Both the position numbers and the translations under genes were made by a program. 35,622 bases of DNA from Actinomyces sp. ICM47 (lineage in GTDB: Bacteria > Actinomycetota > Actinomycetes > Actinomycetales > Actinomycetaceae): the NCBI RefSeq assembly GCF_000278725.1, contig NZ_ALCA01000078.1:1-35622 (forward strand), read 5' to 3'. Shown here in pieces: positions 8,499-35,558 of this stretch. The notes below the pieces were generated by a model. It saw nothing but the letters and a program-made list of their open reading frames with translations, ran no database searches and had not been told where the DNA came from. Numbering within the stretch: position 1 is the first letter of the stretch; each line of letters begins with the position of its first letter.

Positions 8499-9810
8499 CA
8501 TGAATCTGCGACCGATCCAGCACTCGGCTGTTAACTTTGGGCGCTTTGGCCTCCTGCGATATACGCTCACCATCCTGATGGTCGGCGCTCTCTTCGCCAC
8601 GTCAACGGCGTGCTTCCTCTACGCCAAAATCAGTGCCGATTTCGCCGACCGAGTCGTGGACATCGGCGACTATCAGATCGACGGGAACGCTCAGGCGACC
8701 CCGGATTCGTTTGACGGCCGCGCCCTCAACATTCTCGTCGTCGGCACGGACTCGCGTAACGGCGACAGCGGCAATGTCGGTGCAGGTGACGAGGAGGAGG
8801 TCCCCGGCCTTCGCAACGACTCGACGATGGTTATCCACGTCAGCGCCGACCGCTCTCGTGTTCAGGTCGTGTCGATTCCGCGCGACACGCTGGTCGATAT
8901 CCCCGCGTGTAAGCACCGCGACGGATCGACCAGCGAGCCCATCGAAGAAGAGATGTTCAACAACTCCATGTTCTACGGTGCCGACGGTGGTAACACCGAC
9001 GCCGACATCGCGCCCGGTATTGCGTGCGTGAAGTCGACCATCGAGAACATGTCGGGCATGACGATCGATTCCTTCATGGTCGTGAACTTCGCCGGCTTCA
9101 TCAAGATGATCGACGCCCTGGGCGGTATCTGGTTCAACATCCCTAATCACATCGAAGATGAGTCCGCTCAGCTGTACATCGACGCGGGATGCTGGAAGTT
9201 GGACGGCACTCAGTCGCTGGCCTACATGCGCTCGCGCAAGGGCCAGGGCGATGGCTCCGACATCTCTCGTATCGGCCGCCAACAGCAGCTCATCTCCGCG
9301 ATGCTTCGCGAGCTTCAGGCCAAGGACTACGTCACCGACTCCGGCGCGCTCCTCACCTTCCTGCAGGCCGCGATCCAGTCTGTCAACGTCTCCCCGAACC
9401 TGGGCGATGCCAGCGCAGATACTAATTTGCTGCTCAATGTCCTGTCGAAGATCGACCGCACGAACATCCAGTTTGTGACGATGCCCGTCGAAGAGCCCTA
9501 CTGGGATCCGAACCGACGCATTGCTGCTGAACCGATGGCCCGCAACATGTGGACCGCGCTCAAGCAGGACAAGGCGCTGCCCGTGGGTACGACCTACACG
9601 GATGGCAACGGCGCGCAGCTGGTGGTCCCCGACCCGAAGGCTGCACAGGCCGTGCCCTCGCCGACGCCCTCTGCGGCCGACACTCAGAACGCCGGTCAGC
9701 CCCAGAGCACCACGGACAATACCGAGCAGTCGGCCTCCGTTGAGAACAACGCAGCCAACGAGGCTGCCGCCCAGAAGAACGCCGCCACCTGCCCGCCGAA
9801 AGACAAATGA
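8491..9810 (+). CDS. LytR-CpsA-Psr (LCP) family cell-wall glycopolymer ligase
   Basis: A 439-residue membrane-anchored protein. A cytoplasmic N-terminus is followed by one transmembrane helix (about 22-46). The LCP catalytic domain begins at ALNILVVGTDSRNG. It includes RNDSTMVIHVS and VVSIPRDTLVDIP, whose arginines and aspartates bind the polyprenyl pyrophosphate, and continues to LAYMRSRKGQGDGSDISRIGRQQQLI. The last 70 residues are Pro/Ser/Asn/Gln-rich. LCP proteins transfer lipid-linked polysaccharide to peptidoglycan outside the membrane. It lies in an operon with GT2 and DUF2304 genes and overlaps the second LCP gene (ATGA), so this locus most likely ends in wall attachment of its product. 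Confidence 0.93.
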   Translation: MSNMNLRPIQHSAVNFGRFGLLRYTLTILMVGALFATSTACFLYAKISADFADRVVDIGDYQIDGNAQATPDSFDGRALNILVVGTDSRNGDSGNVGAGDEEEVPGLRNDSTMVIHVSADRSRVQVVSIPRDTLVDIPACKHRDGSTSEPIEEEMFNNSMFYGADGGNTDADIAPGIACVKSTIENMSGMTIDSFMVVNFAGFIKMIDALGGIWFNIPNHIEDESAQLYIDAGCWKLDGTQSLAYMRSRKGQGDGSDISRIGRQQQLISAMLRELQAKDYVTDSGALLTFLQAAIQSVNVSPNLGDASADTNLLLNVLSKIDRTNIQFVTMPVEEPYWDPNRRIAAEPMARNMWTALKQDKALPVGTTYTDGNGAQLVVPDPKAAQAVPSPTPSAADTQNAGQPQSTTDNTEQSASVENNAANEAAAQKNAATCPPKDK

Positions 9811-11687
9811 GCACTCCTCCCTCGTTCACGCCCAACCCGAAACGACGCCGCCCCGACTTCGATGACGCGCACGTCATCGGCCAGGAGGCTCCCTCCGGCG
9901 CGCCCGTCCCCCCGTCTGAGGGGATCGCGCCGCAGATGTGGAGGATTTCCGAGGACGGTGCCGACTCCTCGCGCCCGCTGATGCCGCCGACCCTGGATCA
10001 GCCCCAGCGCGATCCGTCCTCGCTGTTTCCGAGGCGTTCCGCTCCTACCCCGCCCCCGTCGTTCGCGCCGGGATCGGCCGCGCGCAAGTCGTTGCGCACG
10101 CGCCAGGCGGACTCGTCACAGAACCCGTCGTCCTCCCCCCAGGCGACGCACCCTGTCCCGACACCGTCGTCCTCCCCCCAGGCGACGCACCCTGTCCCGA
10201 CACCGTCGTCCTCCCCCCAGGCGACGTACCCTGTTCCGACACCTGCGTCCTCCCCCAAGGGGGCGTATCCTGTTCCGACACCTGCGTCCTCCGCCCGTCG
10301 GAGTGCGCCGGTTCCGAATCCGCCTGCCACGCCCGACGAGACGACGGTTGCTCCGAACCCGCCTGCCACGCCCGACGAGACGACGGTTGCTCCGAACCCG
10401 CCGTCCTTCGCGCCTGGCTCCAGCAACGCTGCAACGTCCCGCACCCCAGCGGCTCCCAGCTTCGCACCCGGTTCCGGCAACACTGCGACGCCCCGCACCC
10501 CTGCGGCTCCCAGCTTCGCACCTGGCTCCAGCAACACTGCAACGCCCCGCACCCCAGCGGCTCCCAGCTTCGCGCCCGGCTCCGGCAACGCTGCAACGCC
10601 CCGCACCCCAGCGGCTCCCAGCTTCGCGCCCTCGGGTAACGGGCCGCGCCAGGCGAGCGCCACACGCTCCCAGGCAGTCCCCGACCCGGTCCCCACACCC
10701 GGCGCTACGCCGTCGCGCACCGCTCCGGCGACAGCTCCGAGGCCTCGGCGCAAGCGCCGCCGACGCCTGGTCCTCAAGACGCTGTCTGTTCTCCTGGTCA
10801 TTGTTCTCGCGTGGGGCGGATTCCTCGTGTGGGACGCGAACACGAACATCGGGCGCGTGAGCGCACTGTCGGGCGCCTCGGATACGGCCGGTACGACGTA
10901 CCTGTTGGCCGGTTCGGACTCGCGTGCGGACGGCGCCGTGCAGGACGGCTTTGAGGGATCCGAGCGCGCTGACTCGATCATGCTGGTCAACATCGCGGCG
11001 AACGGCCAGGCTGTTGCTGTGTCGATTCCCCGCGATACCTACGCTGAGATTCCCGGCGTCGGCTGGGACAAGATCAACGCTTCCTACGCCTACGGCGGCC
11101 CCCAGCTCCTGGTCGAGACAGTCGAGAAGCTGACGGGTTTGACCGTCGATCACTTCGTGCAGATCGGCATGGGTGCGGTGCCCGACATGGTGGACGCGGT
11201 CGGCGGCGTGGAGCTGTGCTACGACCACGACTCGAACGACGAGTATTCGGGCCTGAACTGGACTGCTGGCTGCCACACGGTGGACGGCCCCACCGCCCTG
11301 CAGTTCTCGCGTATGCGATACCAGGATCCGGAGGGCGATATCGGTCGTACGAAGCGTCAGCGTCAGGTGATCTCCAAGGTCGTGTCCGAGGCCGCATCCC
11401 CCGCGACCCTCATCAACCCCGCGCGGACCCTACGCGTGGAGCGCGCTGGTTCCAAGTCGTTCACTGTCGATGAGGATTCCTCGATCATGACGGTTGCTTC
11501 CCTCGTGATGGCGCTGCGCAGCGCCTCGTCCGACGAGCTGATGGGTGTCCCGCCCATCGAGTCGCTGGACTATACGACCAGCGCGGGTGCCTCGGCGGTC
11601 CTGCTGCGTGACGAGACGGCCCCTGACTTCTTCGCCAAGCTGCGCTCCGGCAAACTCACGACCTCGGATCTCAACCAGATCGGCTGA
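9807..11687 (+). CDS. LCP family protein with long proline-rich repeat N-terminus
   Basis: A 626-residue LCP protein. Residues 1-315 are predicted cytoplasmic, disordered and Pro/Ala/Ser/Thr-rich, with seven 13-residue and four 18-residue tandem repeats. PRPRRKRRRR precedes a transmembrane helix at about 321-342. The catalytic domain runs from TTYLLAGSDSRAD through SERADSIMLVNI and VAVSIPRDTYAEIP to LQFSRMRYQDPEGDIGRTKRQRQVI, with all the expected Arg/Asp residues. It is much longer than usual LCP proteins (about 300-450) only because of the repeat tail. Role: wall attachment of the glycopolymer, perhaps partly redundant with the preceding LCP. The tail could recruit cytoplasmic or membrane partners; that is inference. 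Overlaps the preceding gene by 4 bases. Confidence 0.93.
   Translation: MSTPPSFTPNPKRRRPDFDDAHVIGQEAPSGAPVPPSEGIAPQMWRISEDGADSSRPLMPPTLDQPQRDPSSLFPRRSAPTPPPSFAPGSAARKSLRTRQADSSQNPSSSPQATHPVPTPSSSPQATHPVPTPSSSPQATYPVPTPASSPKGAYPVPTPASSARRSAPVPNPPATPDETTVAPNPPATPDETTVAPNPPSFAPGSSNAATSRTPAAPSFAPGSGNTATPRTPAAPSFAPGSSNTATPRTPAAPSFAPGSGNAATPRTPAAPSFAPSGNGPRQASATRSQAVPDPVPTPGATPSRTAPATAPRPRRKRRRRLVLKTLSVLLVIVLAWGGFLVWDANTNIGRVSALSGASDTAGTTYLLAGSDSRADGAVQDGFEGSERADSIMLVNIAANGQAVAVSIPRDTYAEIPGVGWDKINASYAYGGPQLLVETVEKLTGLTVDHFVQIGMGAVPDMVDAVGGVELCYDHDSNDEYSGLNWTAGCHTVDGPTALQFSRMRYQDPEGDIGRTKRQRQVISKVVSEAASPATLINPARTLRVERAGSKSFTVDEDSSIMTVASLVMALRSASSDELMGVPPIESLDYTTSAGASAVLLRDETAPDFFAKLRSGKLTTSDLNQIG
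10128..10400 (+). repeat. Seven in-frame 39-bp tandem repeats in the LCP gene
   Basis: Seven 13-residue units (residues 108-198), from SSSPQATHPVPTP through ASSPKGAYPVPTP to PATPDETTVAPNP. The first three are nearly identical in DNA, and the last two are identical to each other in protein. All lengths are multiples of three, so copy-number change would keep the frame. Confidence 0.9.
10401..10616 (+). repeat. Four in-frame 54-bp tandem repeats in the LCP gene
   Basis: Four 18-residue units of the type PSFAPGSGNTATPRTPAA (residues 199-270), plus a partial fifth. DNA similarity between units is high, indicating recent expansion. They follow the 39-bp array without a gap. Confidence 0.9.
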
Positions 11688-27823: not shown

Positions 27824-28047
27824 CTCAAACTCCTCTTTGAGCATGACTTGTTTCACACGATCACCCCACACGTTACCACCACACGACTACCCCAACACCC
27901 GCACGCCACCATCCGATGTCCACTTTTTCGCGACCATTCCCCGTCAAACAAATACAGTGTCTTAGTGACGCTTGTTACACTTTTACTAGCCGCACATTAG
28001 GAGATTTAACGGCGATCGCAGCTTTATCCGTCCCCCACGATCCCACA

Positions 28048-28821
28048 ATGCGCCCCGCGTGTTCCTGGCGCAGTGTCTTCATCGACTCAGCGCACACGTT
28101 CTGGCCAGTGCCCCACGTGGAGCTTCTCCTCATCATCATGGCCAGGTATCATCTCAACGTCCTGCACTGGCGACTCGCCAACGACACGGCATGGCGCATC
28201 CCGATCCCCAGCTTCCACCTTCTCACCGGCGCAGGAGCACAAGCGCCCCGCCCGGCAACCGATGGGCACGCGACCTCCCTCCGATTAGGAGGCGGCCTCG
28301 CACACCCACCCCACTGCGCACACGGCTTTTACTCCGAGGCCGACATCCGCCACCTCGTCACCTACGCGGCGGCTCGCGACATTCGCATCATCCCCGAAAT
28401 CTCCTTCCCCCCACGTACAGATGCCCCGATCCGCGCCTACCCCACGTACAGATGCCCCGATCCGCGCCTATCCCACGATGAGCAACCCGAGCCTCGTCCG
28501 CTCCCCCACACACACGGGCGAGACGGCCCCACGGCCACATACGACTCCACACCGTTCGAGCAGGCGCACCAGCTCCACTCACGACTGCCGGAGGCCATGT
28601 CAACCGAACGATTACGAGGAGTCGAAGCCCTCATCCACCCCACCAGGATCACGAGTTCAGACCCGGCCTTCCTCCACCTACTCCCCCACCTCCTCGTCAC
28701 CGCCGAGGCCGCATGGCATGGATCAGTCACACTACCGTGGAAGCAGCTCTCCCCTCTGATCGACAACGAGCTCACTTACCTGCGCCACACCGTTGCCTAC
28801 TGGAAGACACCGCGGACATAA
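28048..28821 (+). pseudogene. GH20 beta-N-acetylhexosaminidase remnant with internal deletion
   Basis: The first 110 codons match the start of a GH20 catalytic barrel: CSWRSVFIDSAHTFWPV, MARYHLNVLHWRLANDTAWRIPI, FYSEADIRHLVTYAAARDIRIIPEI. After a 31-bp tandem duplication and a low-complexity stretch, the last 70 codons match the family's end: GVEALIHPTRI, LLPHLLVTAEAAWHG. The middle of the barrel, including the catalytic Asp-Glu pair, is missing, roughly 150-200 residues. The reading frame is still open, so a non-catalytic protein might be made, but loss of function is more likely. The functional gene would have cleaved terminal GlcNAc/GalNAc. The frame is open upstream to 27916; no clear ribosome site is seen at either start. 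Confidence 0.75.
28409..28470 (+). repeat. 31-bp perfect tandem duplication in the GH20 remnant
   Basis: Two identical 31-base units (28409-28439, 28440-28470), each starting CCCCACGTACAG. Because 31 is not a multiple of three, the second copy is read in another frame (APIRAYP versus YRCPDPRL), marking an event after or during decay of the gene. Confidence 0.9.
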
Positions 28822-30396: not shown

Positions 30397-32535
30397 ATGC
30401 GACTTTTCCGCACCCTGTGCGCAACGCTCGGGACCCTATTCATCGTGTCGACCCCGTCGTTAGGGGCCTACGCAGCCGCGATCCCGCCTTTGTCGGAGAC
30501 GTCCGTCCTGGCTACGGACGTCCACCTCACTGACGCGGCATCGGCCCTTTCTGTGGAGAACAAGGGCAGCGCCACCGTGGCCGCACCGTTGCGTGCCGCC
30601 GCTGAGGAGGCATCGTCGACTCCATCTTTGTGGCTATTGACCGCCCTGATCATCAGCATCATCATCCTTGTTCTGGTGGTCGTCTTCATCGTCTACGCCT
30701 TGCGTTCACAGAAGGCCAAGAAGAAGTCACAGGCTCAGCGTGTGCCCCCCTCAGGCCAGGGAAGCGTTCCTTTCCCGGCACGGCCCGGCATGCCCGAGGC
30801 CTCGGCATACACTGGTGGTCCCGCTCAGTTCGGTCAGGGAGCAACGTACAACCCCTACCCTGCGCAGAATGCGACACCCGGTGACCCGACGCCGCGCGAA
30901 ACGGGCTTCGTCTGGCAACGACAGACGGGGCCCGCCCCGACTGTTCCTCCGCAGCCCATCTACGCTCCCACAGCTGGCGGCATCCCCGGCCAGCCTCTCG
31001 GTGCTCCCATGGGCATGCCCCCCTCCGATCAGCGCGGCCCCAATTCTGCGACACCCCAGCACGAGCCGCAGCAGCCCACGATGGGTGGTGCCGCGGTGGT
31101 CCGCGGTACCGCTTCCATGTCGGGTGAGAAGACAGAACTGCTCACGACATTTGGCGGTTCAGATCCCGATGCGAAGACGCAGTTGTTCGGCACCTACGAC
31201 GACCAAGCCGACCCCGACGCCAAGACGCAGTTGTTCGGCACCTACGACGACCAAGCCGACCCCGACGCCAAGACACAGCTATTCGGCACCTACGACGACC
31301 AAGCCGCACCTGTCGCGGCTCCCGCTGCTGAGCCGGTCGAGGCACCCAAGACGGAACCGGTCGCGGCGTCCCATGGAGCAGCACCCGCAGCCCCCATTCC
31401 TGCGCCTGCACCTGAGACCACCCCTGCGACGCCCGAAGACCCCGGCGTGCTCACCGTCAAGCTCCCGCGCTACAAGCCCGAGGCGCAGTCCCAGCCCGCA
31501 CCCGCACAAGAACCCCAACCCGAGCAACCCGCACCCGCTGAGCCAGCTGCGACACCCGAAGACCCCGGCATGCTCACCGTCAAGCTCCCACGCTTCAAGC
31601 CCGAAGCACAGGCACAACCCGCACCCGAAGCCGAGTCCGCCGCAGCACCCGAAGACCCCGGCATGCTCACCGTCAAGCTCCCACGCTTCAAGCCCGAGGC
31701 ACAGTCCCAGCCCGCACCCGCACAAGAACCCCAACCCGAGCAGCCTGCCCCCGCTCAGTCCGCCGCGCAGCCGGAGCAGGTCGACGCACCCGCTCCCGAG
31801 CAAGCGCCGGCCGAGGCACCTCAGTACGTTGACGTCCCGACCGTCAAGCTGCTGCGGGTCCCCACCCAGCAAGCATCTGCCGCGTCGCCCGAGCAGGCCG
31901 CACCTCCTGAGCCGGAACACGTCGCGTCGCCCGAAGCGTCCTCCGCCCCCGCATCGACTGGCGCACCTCAGCCGGTTGCCGCGCCGCAGCCACGCGTCGC
32001 GCCCGAGGCGATGCCCGCCCCGGCCTCGTCCCTTGGGGATGACTCGGATGAAGGCGTGCCCACCGTGCAGATGCCTCAGTTCGACAGGATGGATTCCTTC
32101 GACTGGGACTCCCCCGCCGCGAGCCAGCAGGCCCCGCAAGCCCAGCAGGCACCGCAGACTCCTGCGGTGCCGGCCGCGCCGCAGATGCAGGTACCTCAGC
32201 AGCCCATGCCGACGGCACCCGCTCAGCCCTTCCCGCCGGTAGATCAGGGCGCTGCCGCGCAGCAGGTTCCCACGGTACCCCAGGCTCCCGAGCAATCCGG
32301 CGGCTTCCAGGAGAGCTGGACCTCGCAGTTCTCGTGGAGCGAAGAGATCCGTCCGGAGCCGCAAGCGCAGAAGAAGCGCCGCTGGCCCTGGTCGAAGCGC
32401 CGCAAGCAGAAGGGTGAAGAAGAGGCCGCACAGGCGCTGCCCGAGGGCAATGCGCCCGGCGCTACCGCGCACATGCCGGTGATCGCCGTCGACGCGCAGG
32501 ACGACGACTGGCAGAACTGGAACTCACGGAACTGA
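30397..32535 (+). CDS. Single-pass membrane protein with repeated Thr-centred motifs
   Basis: A 712-residue protein of unrecognised family. Residues 1-28 form a signal peptide (ends GAYAAA), 29-77 a short extracellular part, 78-102 one transmembrane helix, followed by KKK. About 600 disordered Pro/Ala/Gln/Glu-rich residues follow in the cytoplasm. Within them: EKTELLTTFG, three copies of DAKTQLFGTYDDQ (16-residue period, 256-303), three copies of PEDPG-[VM]-LTVKLPR-[YF]-KPEAQ (346-455), then DVPTVKLLR and GVPTVQMPQFD. All centre on T-x-x-[L/F/M] with acidic residues nearby, matching what actinobacterial Ser/Thr kinases phosphorylate and FHA domains bind. A basic KKRRWPWSKRRKQK and an acidic, Trp-containing tail end it. 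A signalling scaffold is inferred, not shown. Confidence 0.8.
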   Translation: MRLFRTLCATLGTLFIVSTPSLGAYAAAIPPLSETSVLATDVHLTDAASALSVENKGSATVAAPLRAAAEEASSTPSLWLLTALIISIIILVLVVVFIVYALRSQKAKKKSQAQRVPPSGQGSVPFPARPGMPEASAYTGGPAQFGQGATYNPYPAQNATPGDPTPRETGFVWQRQTGPAPTVPPQPIYAPTAGGIPGQPLGAPMGMPPSDQRGPNSATPQHEPQQPTMGGAAVVRGTASMSGEKTELLTTFGGSDPDAKTQLFGTYDDQADPDAKTQLFGTYDDQADPDAKTQLFGTYDDQAAPVAAPAAEPVEAPKTEPVAASHGAAPAAPIPAPAPETTPATPEDPGVLTVKLPRYKPEAQSQPAPAQEPQPEQPAPAEPAATPEDPGMLTVKLPRFKPEAQAQPAPEAESAAAPEDPGMLTVKLPRFKPEAQSQPAPAQEPQPEQPAPAQSAAQPEQVDAPAPEQAPAEAPQYVDVPTVKLLRVPTQQASAASPEQAAPPEPEHVASPEASSAPASTGAPQPVAAPQPRVAPEAMPAPASSLGDDSDEGVPTVQMPQFDRMDSFDWDSPAASQQAPQAQQAPQTPAVPAAPQMQVPQQPMPTAPAQPFPPVDQGAAAQQVPTVPQAPEQSGGFQESWTSQFSWSEEIRPEPQAQKKRRWPWSKRRKQKGEEEAAQALPEGNAPGATAHMPVIAVDAQDDDWQNWNSRN
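31162..31305 (+). repeat. Three 48-bp tandem repeats
   Basis: Residues 256-303: three 16-residue units D-P-D-A-K-T-Q-L-F-G-T-Y-D-D-Q-A, nearly identical in DNA, so recently expanded or kept uniform by conversion. Confidence 0.9.
31432..31761 (+). repeat. Three long repeats with LTVKLPR core
   Basis: Residues about 346-455: three units starting PEDPG and containing LTVKLPR. Units one and three share the long Pro/Gln spacer (QSQPAPAQEPQPEQPAPA); the middle unit has a shorter one. Confidence 0.85.
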
Positions 32536-34600: not shown

Positions 34601-34650
34601 GCGCCACCGCTCCGGTGAGCCGCGAGCGCGCGCTGACCCGGGCCTCGTCC
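34601..34650 (+). repeat. 50-bp direct repeat, left copy
   Basis: Matches 35573-35622 at 48 of 50 positions. Its right end (34636-34650) is the left arm of the terminator behind the YbjN gene. The two copies bracket the toxin-antitoxin module. Confidence 0.9.
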
Positions 34651-34669
34651 CCGTCGACGAGGCCCGGGT
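34636..34669 (+). terminator. Terminator after the YbjN gene
   Basis: CCCGGGCCTCGTC (34637-34649) pairs perfectly with GACGAGGCCCGGG (34656-34668), extended by an A-T pair, and is followed by TTCGTTATGT. It carries the GGCCTCGT core. Confidence 0.85.
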
Positions 34670-34708
34670 TCGTTATGTGCTCAGCTGTCGCCACTCGCCC
34701 CGATCCGG

Positions 34709-34721
34709 CATACAATGTATG
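34709..34721 (+). promoter_or_regulatory. -10 box and overlapping operator-like dyad of the antitoxin gene
   Basis: CATAC-AAT-GTATG is an inverted repeat (34709-34721) that contains TACAAT (34711-34716), a good -10 box 28 bases before the start. Ribbon-helix-helix antitoxins usually repress their own operon from such sites. Confidence 0.6.
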
Positions 34722-34743
34722 TACGAGCGGAAAGGAGCGCGAC

Positions 34744-35043
34744 ATGTCTGCGCACGCAACTGCCACAAAGTCATCTCGCATCAACCTGCGTTTGACGCCT
34801 GCGCAGGAGGAAAAGCTGCGCTACGTCGCGAGCACTACGCAGACGTCGCTGAGCGATTTTGTCCTCGCGTCCGCCCTGGAACGCGCGGATCAGGTGCTGG
34901 AGGACCGCACGGAGTTCGTCGCAACAGACGAGGATTTCGAGCGTCTGTTGGAGGCCCTGGACGCGCCGCTTCCGACGACAAAAATCCAAGCGCTCGCCGC
35001 CCGCCCCTCCCCCGTCGGATCGACGCTGACATGGACGGACTAG
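34744..35043 (+). CDS. DUF1778 ribbon-helix-helix antitoxin (TacA-like)
   Basis: A 99-residue antitoxin. SRINLRLTPAQEEKLRYVASTTQTSLSDFVLASALERADQVLED is the ribbon-helix-helix DNA-binding domain of DUF1778 proteins. FVATDEDFERLLEALDAPLPTTKIQALA is the C-terminal segment that wraps and blocks the partner toxin. AAAGGAG precedes the ATG at 34744, whereas the frame is open further upstream into the terminator repeat. It overlaps the toxin gene by 13 bases. Expected role: neutralise the acetyltransferase toxin and repress the operon. Confidence 0.92.
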   Translation: MSAHATATKSSRINLRLTPAQEEKLRYVASTTQTSLSDFVLASALERADQVLEDRTEFVATDEDFERLLEALDAPLPTTKIQALAARPSPVGSTLTWTD

Positions 35044-35558
35044 AGCTCCCGGTGCTCGATGCTCCCCGCCGGTTGGCGCGCCATGACAAGCGCAGCGATT
35101 TCACGTGTGGAAACGACGAACTGGACACCTGGTTTCACCGCTATGCGTGGCAAAACCAGCGGGCCAACAACGCGGTGACCTACGTGTGCCAGCAGAGCGG
35201 GCGTATCGCCGGCTACTACGCGCTAGCGGCAGCGACGATTCGGCGCGAGTGGTCGCCGGATGACTGTGCTGCCCACCGACCCCGGTCAATCCCGTGCATG
35301 CTCCTGGCCAGGCTCGCGGTTGACCGCCGAGTACAGGGGCAGGGTGTGGGCGCGACGCTCCTGCTCGACGCGCTTCGCCGGACTCTCGCGGCATCGGACC
35401 AGTTCGGAATCGCCGCGCTGCTCATCCACTGCAAGGACGAGCACGCACGCGACTTCTACACGCATCACGTTGACGCACTGGTCTCGCCTATCGCCCCGCT
35501 GCAGCTCATCGTGCCGACGCAAACGATTGCACTCGCGTTGGGTACCGCGCACGAGTAG
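35031..35558 (+). CDS. GNAT toxin of a TacAT-type toxin-antitoxin pair
   Basis: A 175-residue acetyltransferase. FTCGNDELDTWFHRYAWQNQRANNAVTYV is the signature N-terminus of TacT/AtaT-type toxins. IAGYYALAAATI is the central strand, LLARLAVDRRVQGQGVGATLLLDALRRT the acetyl-CoA loop, and HARDFYTHHVDALVSP holds the catalytic tyrosine. Known relatives acetylate the amino group of charged tRNAs and stop translation. The usual F-Y-x-x-x-G-F is altered to FYTHHVDAL, so the substrate pocket end differs. The ATG lies inside the antitoxin gene (13-base overlap), typical of coupled modules. Confidence 0.9.
   Translation: MDGLELPVLDAPRRLARHDKRSDFTCGNDELDTWFHRYAWQNQRANNAVTYVCQQSGRIAGYYALAAATIRREWSPDDCAAHRPRSIPCMLLARLAVDRRVQGQGVGATLLLDALRRTLAASDQFGIAALLIHCKDEHARDFYTHHVDALVSPIAPLQLIVPTQTIALALGTAHE

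Follow-up and report, generated by a model that had tools for sequence, protein, structure and literature searches.

We identified, in the 35,622-nucleotide stretch of Actinomyces sp. ICM47 contig NZ_ALCA01000078.1 analyzed here (the window), a gene for a single-helix membrane protein, hereafter the scaffold, whose long tail carries an array of nine T-x-x-[LFM] motifs with constrained threonines and +3 residues. According to the best available reading of its sequence, the scaffold may be a membrane-tethered multivalent docking platform for phosphothreonine readers, and we set the probability of this reading slightly short of one half because the motifs misfit the patterns associated with the kinases PknA and PknB.

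The features of the gene and its product are collected in table 1. The topology put forward in the first-pass annotation held in its main part: hydropathy recovered one membrane helix, which is followed by a tail of 609 residues. The proposed signal peptide was recognized by eye and escaped the threshold of the hydropathy scan; between it, as so placed, and the helix lie about 49 outer residues. The tail is rich in Pro, Ala and Gln (112 Pro, 103 Ala), and because a basic stretch, RSQKAKKKSQ, directly follows the helix, it is probably cytoplasmic under the positive-inside rule. No family in Pfam or NCBIfam matched the protein above cut-off; in particular, the Pfam search gave no FHA domain, and neither collection gave an FHA or BRCT domain match of the MDC1 type. 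Matches to nucleoporin FG, HSP20 and other Pfam entries lay below cut-off, were explained by composition and were rejected. Conservation within the tail, as seen in alignment A1, peaked at the C-terminal peptide (VDAQDDDW...QNWNSR) and the basic Trp patch upstream of it, and the peptide surpassed the motif array in conservation.

Table 1. Features of the scaffold gene and of the protein it encodes, in coordinates of the window.
Feature	Position	Strand	Remark
Scaffold gene, 712 aa	30397..32535	+	Open reading frame as given in the first-pass annotation
Signal peptide, about residues 1-28	30397..30480	+	By eye; below hydropathy-scan threshold
Membrane helix, about residues 78-104	30628..30708	+	Hydropathy
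PRETGFVW motif, residues 166-173	30892..30915	+	Control motif
KTELL, class 1, Thr246	31129..31143	+	
Three 48-bp tandem copies coding DPDAKTQLFGTYDDQA	31162..31305	+	
KTQLF, class 1, Thr261	31174..31188	+	
KTQLF, class 1, Thr277	31222..31236	+	
KTQLF, class 1, Thr293	31270..31284	+	
LTVKLP, class 2, Thr353	31450..31467	+	
LTVKLP, class 2, Thr394	31573..31590	+	
LTVKLP, class 2, Thr425	31666..31683	+	
PTVKLL, class 2, Thr482	31837..31854	+	
PTVQMP, class 2, Thr556	32059..32076	+	Site B, found family-wide
Basic Trp patch KKRRWPWSKRRKQK, residues 659-672	32371..32412	+	Alignments A1, A2
Conserved C-terminal peptide PVIAVDAQDDDWQNWNSRN, residues 694-712	32476..32532	+	Invariant alignment columns

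All nine motifs were present as the first-pass annotation had written them (one KTELL, three KTQLF, three LTVKLP, one PTVKLL and one PTVQMP), and the acidic residues that it had noticed nearby were found as an Asp or Glu within the six residues before the threonine in 9/9 motifs. Class 1, K-T-[EQ]-L-[LF], consists of one single copy and three copies within the 48-bp tandem repeats, and class 2, T-V-[KQ]-[LM]-[PL], of five spaced copies. A feature absent from that annotation lies at +6, where all nine motifs have an aromatic or branched hydrophobic residue (TELLTTF, TQLFGTY, TVKLPRY/F, TVKLLRV and TVQMPQF). Three other T-x-x-[LIMF] occurrences, at Thr238, Thr642 and Thr690, lie outside the array. 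The nine-motif observation stands and is stronger than first stated.

We compared the threonine contexts of the tail with chance expectation. L/I/M/F stood at +3 of 12/37 tail threonines, against a shuffle mean of 2.9 (0/2000 shuffles reached 12), and at +6 of 10/37 (0/2000 shuffles as high); position -2 was likewise raised (8/37 versus 2.9 shuffled; 6/2000). Because the repeats inflate these shuffle figures, distinct contexts were also counted: L/I/M/F occupied +3 in 8 of 30 distinct threonine contexts (binomial p 0.0018), and hydrophobic residues occupied +3 and +6 jointly in six of the 30 (p 1.6e-6), a count that includes the unconserved Thr690. The same two counts for serine contexts were 3/33 and 0/33. 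A sample from a relative's genome, made up of 20 spaced pieces of 20 kb each (400 kb; 319 predicted ORFs, 118,006 aa), contained 24 occurrences of the strict motif, one of them the scaffold orthologue itself, and at most one per ORF versus nine in the scaffold, a comparison that is only descriptive because the pattern was written after the window had been seen. No preference for threonine over serine emerged in this sample for the motif's proline form ([DE] among the five preceding residues, then x..[LIMF]P.[VFIYLM]; Thr 10, Ser 21; 1.36 versus 2.53 per 1000 residues), which also occurred with Ala (24), Gly (20), Gln (11), Val (9) and Asn (3) in that position. Acidic threonines in disordered context gave no peak at +3 in the same sample (65/555, with 40 to 69 at other offsets). 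With neither a threonine preference nor a +3 peak in the 319 ORFs, a genome-wide general code was unsupported and was set aside. An MscS-like protein of a related genome (G005; L093:11544-14678) has a long disordered tail with DETQVI, DETAVM, DSDATQVLPSV and DETLVM, possibly a second tail of threonine motifs, and an MltG-like protein of the same genome (L100:3647-5095) has an N-terminal tail with FDEVTDTGAMPRVS, near class 2; as regards a general code, these two tails and PknB are anecdotes.

A protein search with the scaffold returned 95 proteins, comprising 11 of the window subgroup, five that form a second subgroup (P0012-P0016, with 53% identity in alignment A2) and 79 others, and two scans of genome contigs gave none and then five loci, labelled Schaalia odontolytica, Schaalia sp., Actinomyces sp., Xylanimonas and Sanguibacter. 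The gene at the loci labelled Xylanimonas cellulosilytica (L001) and Sanguibacter keddieii (L002) is nearly the same as in Schaalia odontolytica, and these two labels may be wrong. At genus level, the scaffold family was present in 10/35 genomes. Across the larger family, 17/200 genomes matched, the 10 known ones over long stretches; the seven further genomes, whose matches covered nothing but a stalk-like part of the profile (E 4e-8 to 4e-4), were not counted. A profile search with distant rows returned at least 16 proteins, none of them new among the matches listed; when the class 1 array alone served as query, 11 proteins were retrieved, each a member of the scaffold family.

In most relatives, the motifs number two, site A (TMLIP or TTLLP) and site B (TAQI, TAQF, TAQL, TAQM or TTQM), and the protein also has an ectodomain of ~200 residues and a long EPEPVV stalk; by pattern, locus L083 has site B alone, and at L084 a sequence gap breaks the gene. 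The window and P0012 subgroups have neither ectodomain nor stalk and carry 6 to 9 motifs in full-length members, counts that may be affected where metagenome assembly collapsed repeats. At the same place in the outgroup genome G011, an ectodomain-like start and the helix are kept, and the tail is short, with no T-x-x-[LIMF] seen. The array is lineage-specific, and on the simplest reading of these sequences it would have grown inside one clade. The ectodomain of the relatives had no Pfam match; its top Foldseek match was the folded domain of LppM (Rv2171; PDB 2nc8), a weak match (E 4.4e-3, probability 0.99, TM 0.44). The window protein lacks this ectodomain, and the relation to LppM is a lead only.

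We addressed constraint on the motifs in a set of 106 sequences (the window, 95 proteins and 10 loci) divided into groups of 12, 5 and 89, which, given the close kin among them, we counted as about eight lineages by our own estimate. The anchors used for counting lie outside the tested residues; they overlap and miss altered copies. The class 2 threonine was present in 34/34 instances of the window subgroup and 14/14 of the P0012 subgroup with the V[KQ] anchor, in 25/25 and 9/9 with the DPG anchor and in 10/10 and 9/9 with the VDVP anchor; the class 1 threonine was present in 37/37 and 16/16, and +3 was L or F throughout these anchored counts. The nine motif columns of the alignment held threonine or a gap only, and no Ser, Val, Ile or Ala replaced a motif threonine in any anchored or aligned instance among the 106 sequences. 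At site B, threonine was kept in 10/10 of the group of 12 (two end earlier), 5/5 and 89/89, with M, I, F or L at +3, and site A had Thr and Ile in the 80 of 89 relatives that fit its pattern. Between the two array subgroups, the motif threonine was identical at 7/7 alignable motifs versus 9/22 other tail threonines (Fisher p 0.007), and the +3 and +6 residues were identical at 5/7 and 2/7, respectively; L, F, M and I replace one another at +3, and +6 drifts (Y, F, V, A), with Ala at site B of the P0012 group.

The control threonines varied. Thr642 was kept in the P0012 group and was Asn in 89/89 others; Thr690 was Ser in 5/5 of the P0012 group and Ser (87) or Ala (2) in the others; Thr238 was Gln in the P0012 group; and the PR[DE]TGF threonine was Thr in 76, Ser in 9 and Ala in 2 of the 87 matched among 89 relatives. 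The site B threonine codon varied by lineage (ACC, ACA, ACG). The three 48-bp copies showed synonymous differences alone: copies 1 and 3 differed at six bases, two of them in one Leu codon and one in the Thr codon, none of which altered the protein. The chance of six synonymous changes was ~6e-5 by simple counting, in which mutation bias and the sharing of one codon by two of the changes are disregarded. In the P0012 subgroup, the class 1 copies have diverged (RTELL, KTQIL, KTQLL, KTEFL) with the core intact. These results agreed with the selection on the threonine and its +3 position suggested in the first-pass annotation, both being kept in the 106 sequences while spacers, most other threonines and repeat number change; the orthologue alignment that it had named as a refutation test, with Thr and +3 scored against spacers, left its proposal of an FHA docking platform unrefuted.

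The FHA and Ser/Thr kinase genes on which that proposal depends were found in related genomes. All 15 related genomes tested, which include the ten that bear the scaffold, gave FHA matches (4 to 10 each), and all nine genomes tested for kinases, which exclude G010, gave Ser/Thr kinase matches (seven or eight each, one weak and partial). In particular, G005 encodes a PASTA PknB kinase, an FhaA with its N-terminal domain, an FhaB-like protein and a GarA/OdhI homologue. The GarA homologues of the relatives carry PT[AST]TS[IVL][FL] in 12/12 distinct N-termini, and their PknB carries ATEVLP before the helix in 9/9 loci; both sites are T-x-x-hydrophobic, and KTQLFG of the scaffold is close to the GarA site TS[IVL][FL]. 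By coordinates, no FHA or kinase match lay near the scaffold gene in G004 and G005. Our literature search returned nothing on FHA and kinase specificity, nor on a threonine kinase of Schaalia odontolytica; Prisic et al. 2010 is reportedly a study of mycobacterial kinase specificity. In M. tuberculosis, 88% of the phosphopeptides that fall on PknA/PknB inhibition carry threonine, and Glu-x-x-Thr and Thr-x-Pro are tied to PknA/PknB-dependent sites (PMC5845002). Neither Glu at -3 nor Pro at +2 was found in any of the nine window motifs, which have Asp at -3 in 4/9 and Pro at -1 in 2/9; at site B of the relatives, Glu stands at -3 in at least 86/89.

The folded domains of MDC1 are FHA and BRCT. 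Its four TQXF motifs, once phosphorylated, recruit FHA proteins, and this cluster is read in animals by the FHA domains of RNF8 and Pellino (PMC11884936). Like MDC1, the scaffold carries multiple T-x-x-hydrophobic sites within a flexible stretch, of which three are T-Q-L-F and six are related T-x-x-[LM] sites; unlike MDC1, it is a bacterial membrane protein without the MDC1 domains, and it is not homologous. FHA domains bind phosphothreonine and not phosphoserine (PMC4037201, PMC11884936), and the FHA domain of RNF8 prefers Tyr or Phe at +3, but the same paper cautions against taking +3 as a general rule (PMC4037201). In GarA/OdhI of other actinobacteria, C. glutamicum among them, the N-terminus, once phosphorylated, becomes a ligand of the FHA domain of that very protein (PMC2784874). 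The scaffold resembles GarA/OdhI in its T-x-[LIV]-[FL] site; however, GarA is a soluble single-site switch with the FHA domain in the same chain, whereas the scaffold has many sites and no FHA domain. Because the defining domains of the MDC1 and GarA families were not found, the scaffold was placed in neither. The nearest printed analogue found is MSMEG_0692/Rv0312, a one-helix protein called "proline and threonine-rich" that co-purified with M. smegmatis FhaA, as did MviN and CwsA; these partners of FhaA sit at the mycobacterial pole, and the co-purification was cross-linked, so that contacts are direct or indirect (PMC11898655). The scaffold is likewise a single-helix, Pro/Thr-rich membrane protein, and MSMEG_0692/Rv0312 was recovered with an FHA protein; the two are likened by description and not by sequence, and the "ATP binding" listed for MSMEG_0692/Rv0312 has no sign in the scaffold. 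No bacterial phosphothreonine array was recognized in the literature searched, which was available in part. To our knowledge, known bacterial FHA ligands are single or paired sites, and a hydrophobic +6 residue figures in no known FHA rule.

If the scaffold is a phosphothreonine docking platform, Ser/Thr kinases, probably membrane kinases, would phosphorylate the threonines of the motifs along the flexible tail, and FHA proteins such as FhaA, FhaB-like proteins or GarA homologues would bind several pThr-x-x-hydrophobic sites at once; we propose that the FHA concentration at the membrane would therefore rise with the number of phosphorylated sites. The C-terminal peptide and the basic Trp patch might, speculatively, hold a second partner or the membrane. 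This proposal is favored by the threonine and +3 residue (L/F/M/I) kept in every anchored instance, also where the site B codon varies, where copies 1 and 3 differ synonymously and where the P0012 copies have diverged around an intact core. The absence of serine from motif positions accords with the reading of pThr and not pSer by FHA domains (PMC4037201, PMC11884936), and FHA proteins in 15/15 and kinases in 9/9 related genomes, together with the likeness of KTQLFG to the relatives' GarA site, point the same way. Against it stand the misfit of 0/9 motifs to Glu -3 or Pro +2 (PMC5845002), the proline form of the genome sample (Thr 10 versus Ser 21), the lack of FHA or kinase matches near the gene in G004 and G005 and the close kinship of the sequences, about eight lineages. 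FHA binding also leaves +6, which is Ala at site B of the P0012 group, unexplained, and the +6 residue leaves room for a motif that works independently of phosphorylation. The repeats would then be T-x-x-hydrophobic-x-x-hydrophobic motifs that dock a cytoplasmic partner in extended form, for example a cell-division or polar-growth protein, with the threonine serving shape or hydrogen bonding. Such docking, which we hold to be rather unlikely, would suit the hydrophobic +3 and +6 residues of all nine window motifs, the genome sample without threonine preference and the conserved C-terminal peptide as a sign of other fixed docking segments in the tail; however, the threonine is never Val, Ile, Ser or Ala, while +6 drifts and +3 swaps.

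Two further alternatives were considered. The acidic residues before 9/9 threonines, the many equivalent sites and the kinases in 9/9 related genomes tested would also be expected of a multi-site kinase substrate in which phosphorylation alters charge, extension or membrane contact without being read by FHA domains, but a charge effect needs neither a fixed hydrophobic residue at +3 nor threonine over serine, and we give this possibility a small share of the probability. Near-neutral expansion of the repeats within a spacer of low complexity is very improbable. The Pro/Ala-rich tail, the finding of the array in just two subgroups of the family and the loose copy number (6 to 9 motifs in full-length members) would agree with it, but the threonine and +3 are kept in the diverged copies and at the single-copy site B, and the base changes that separate copies 1 and 3, six in all, are without exception synonymous (~6e-5, simple count). 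Returning to docking through phosphothreonine, we also considered a bolder form by analogy with MDC1, which is conceivable and on balance doubtful: the ectodomain would have been lost and a pair of pThr sites expanded to an array of about nine, which would draw FHA proteins together beneath the membrane in a cluster or condensate under kinase control, tuned in each strain by its repeat number. If true, bacteria too would use multivalent phospho-dependent docking to concentrate regulators; the natural series of repeat numbers would let avidity be measured, and in oral actinobacteria Ser/Thr kinases would be linked to the cell envelope by a path open to experiment.

Judged by eye, the genes around the scaffold at locus L004 follow the order of the window (glutamine synthetase, GH20-like protein, MerR regulator, acetyltransferase, scaffold, EcsC-like protein and TPR/YbjN protein). 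The gene upstream at L004 was rejected as a scaffold relative, its resemblance being confined to the signal region. A close orthologue of the neighboring TPR/YbjN protein (73-80% identical) was present in exactly the 10/35 genomes that bear the scaffold, a co-occurrence that may be plain kinship. In G011 (L174:13647-16215), the TPR/YbjN gene stands in three tandem copies downstream of the motif-free counterpart, and G012 has three tandem copies too. Elsewhere in the window, the GH20-family gene at 27916-28821 encodes 301 aa versus 422 aa in its L004 counterpart and contains a 31-bp tandem duplication at 28409-28477; this gene may be degraded. A LytR-CpsA-Psr protein encoded at 9807-11687 has an N-terminal tail with Pro/Thr-rich tandem repeats of 39 bp and 54 bp (10125-10631). 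At 34615-35558, a TacA-type antitoxin frame is followed by an overlapping acetyltransferase frame, likely a toxin-antitoxin pair.
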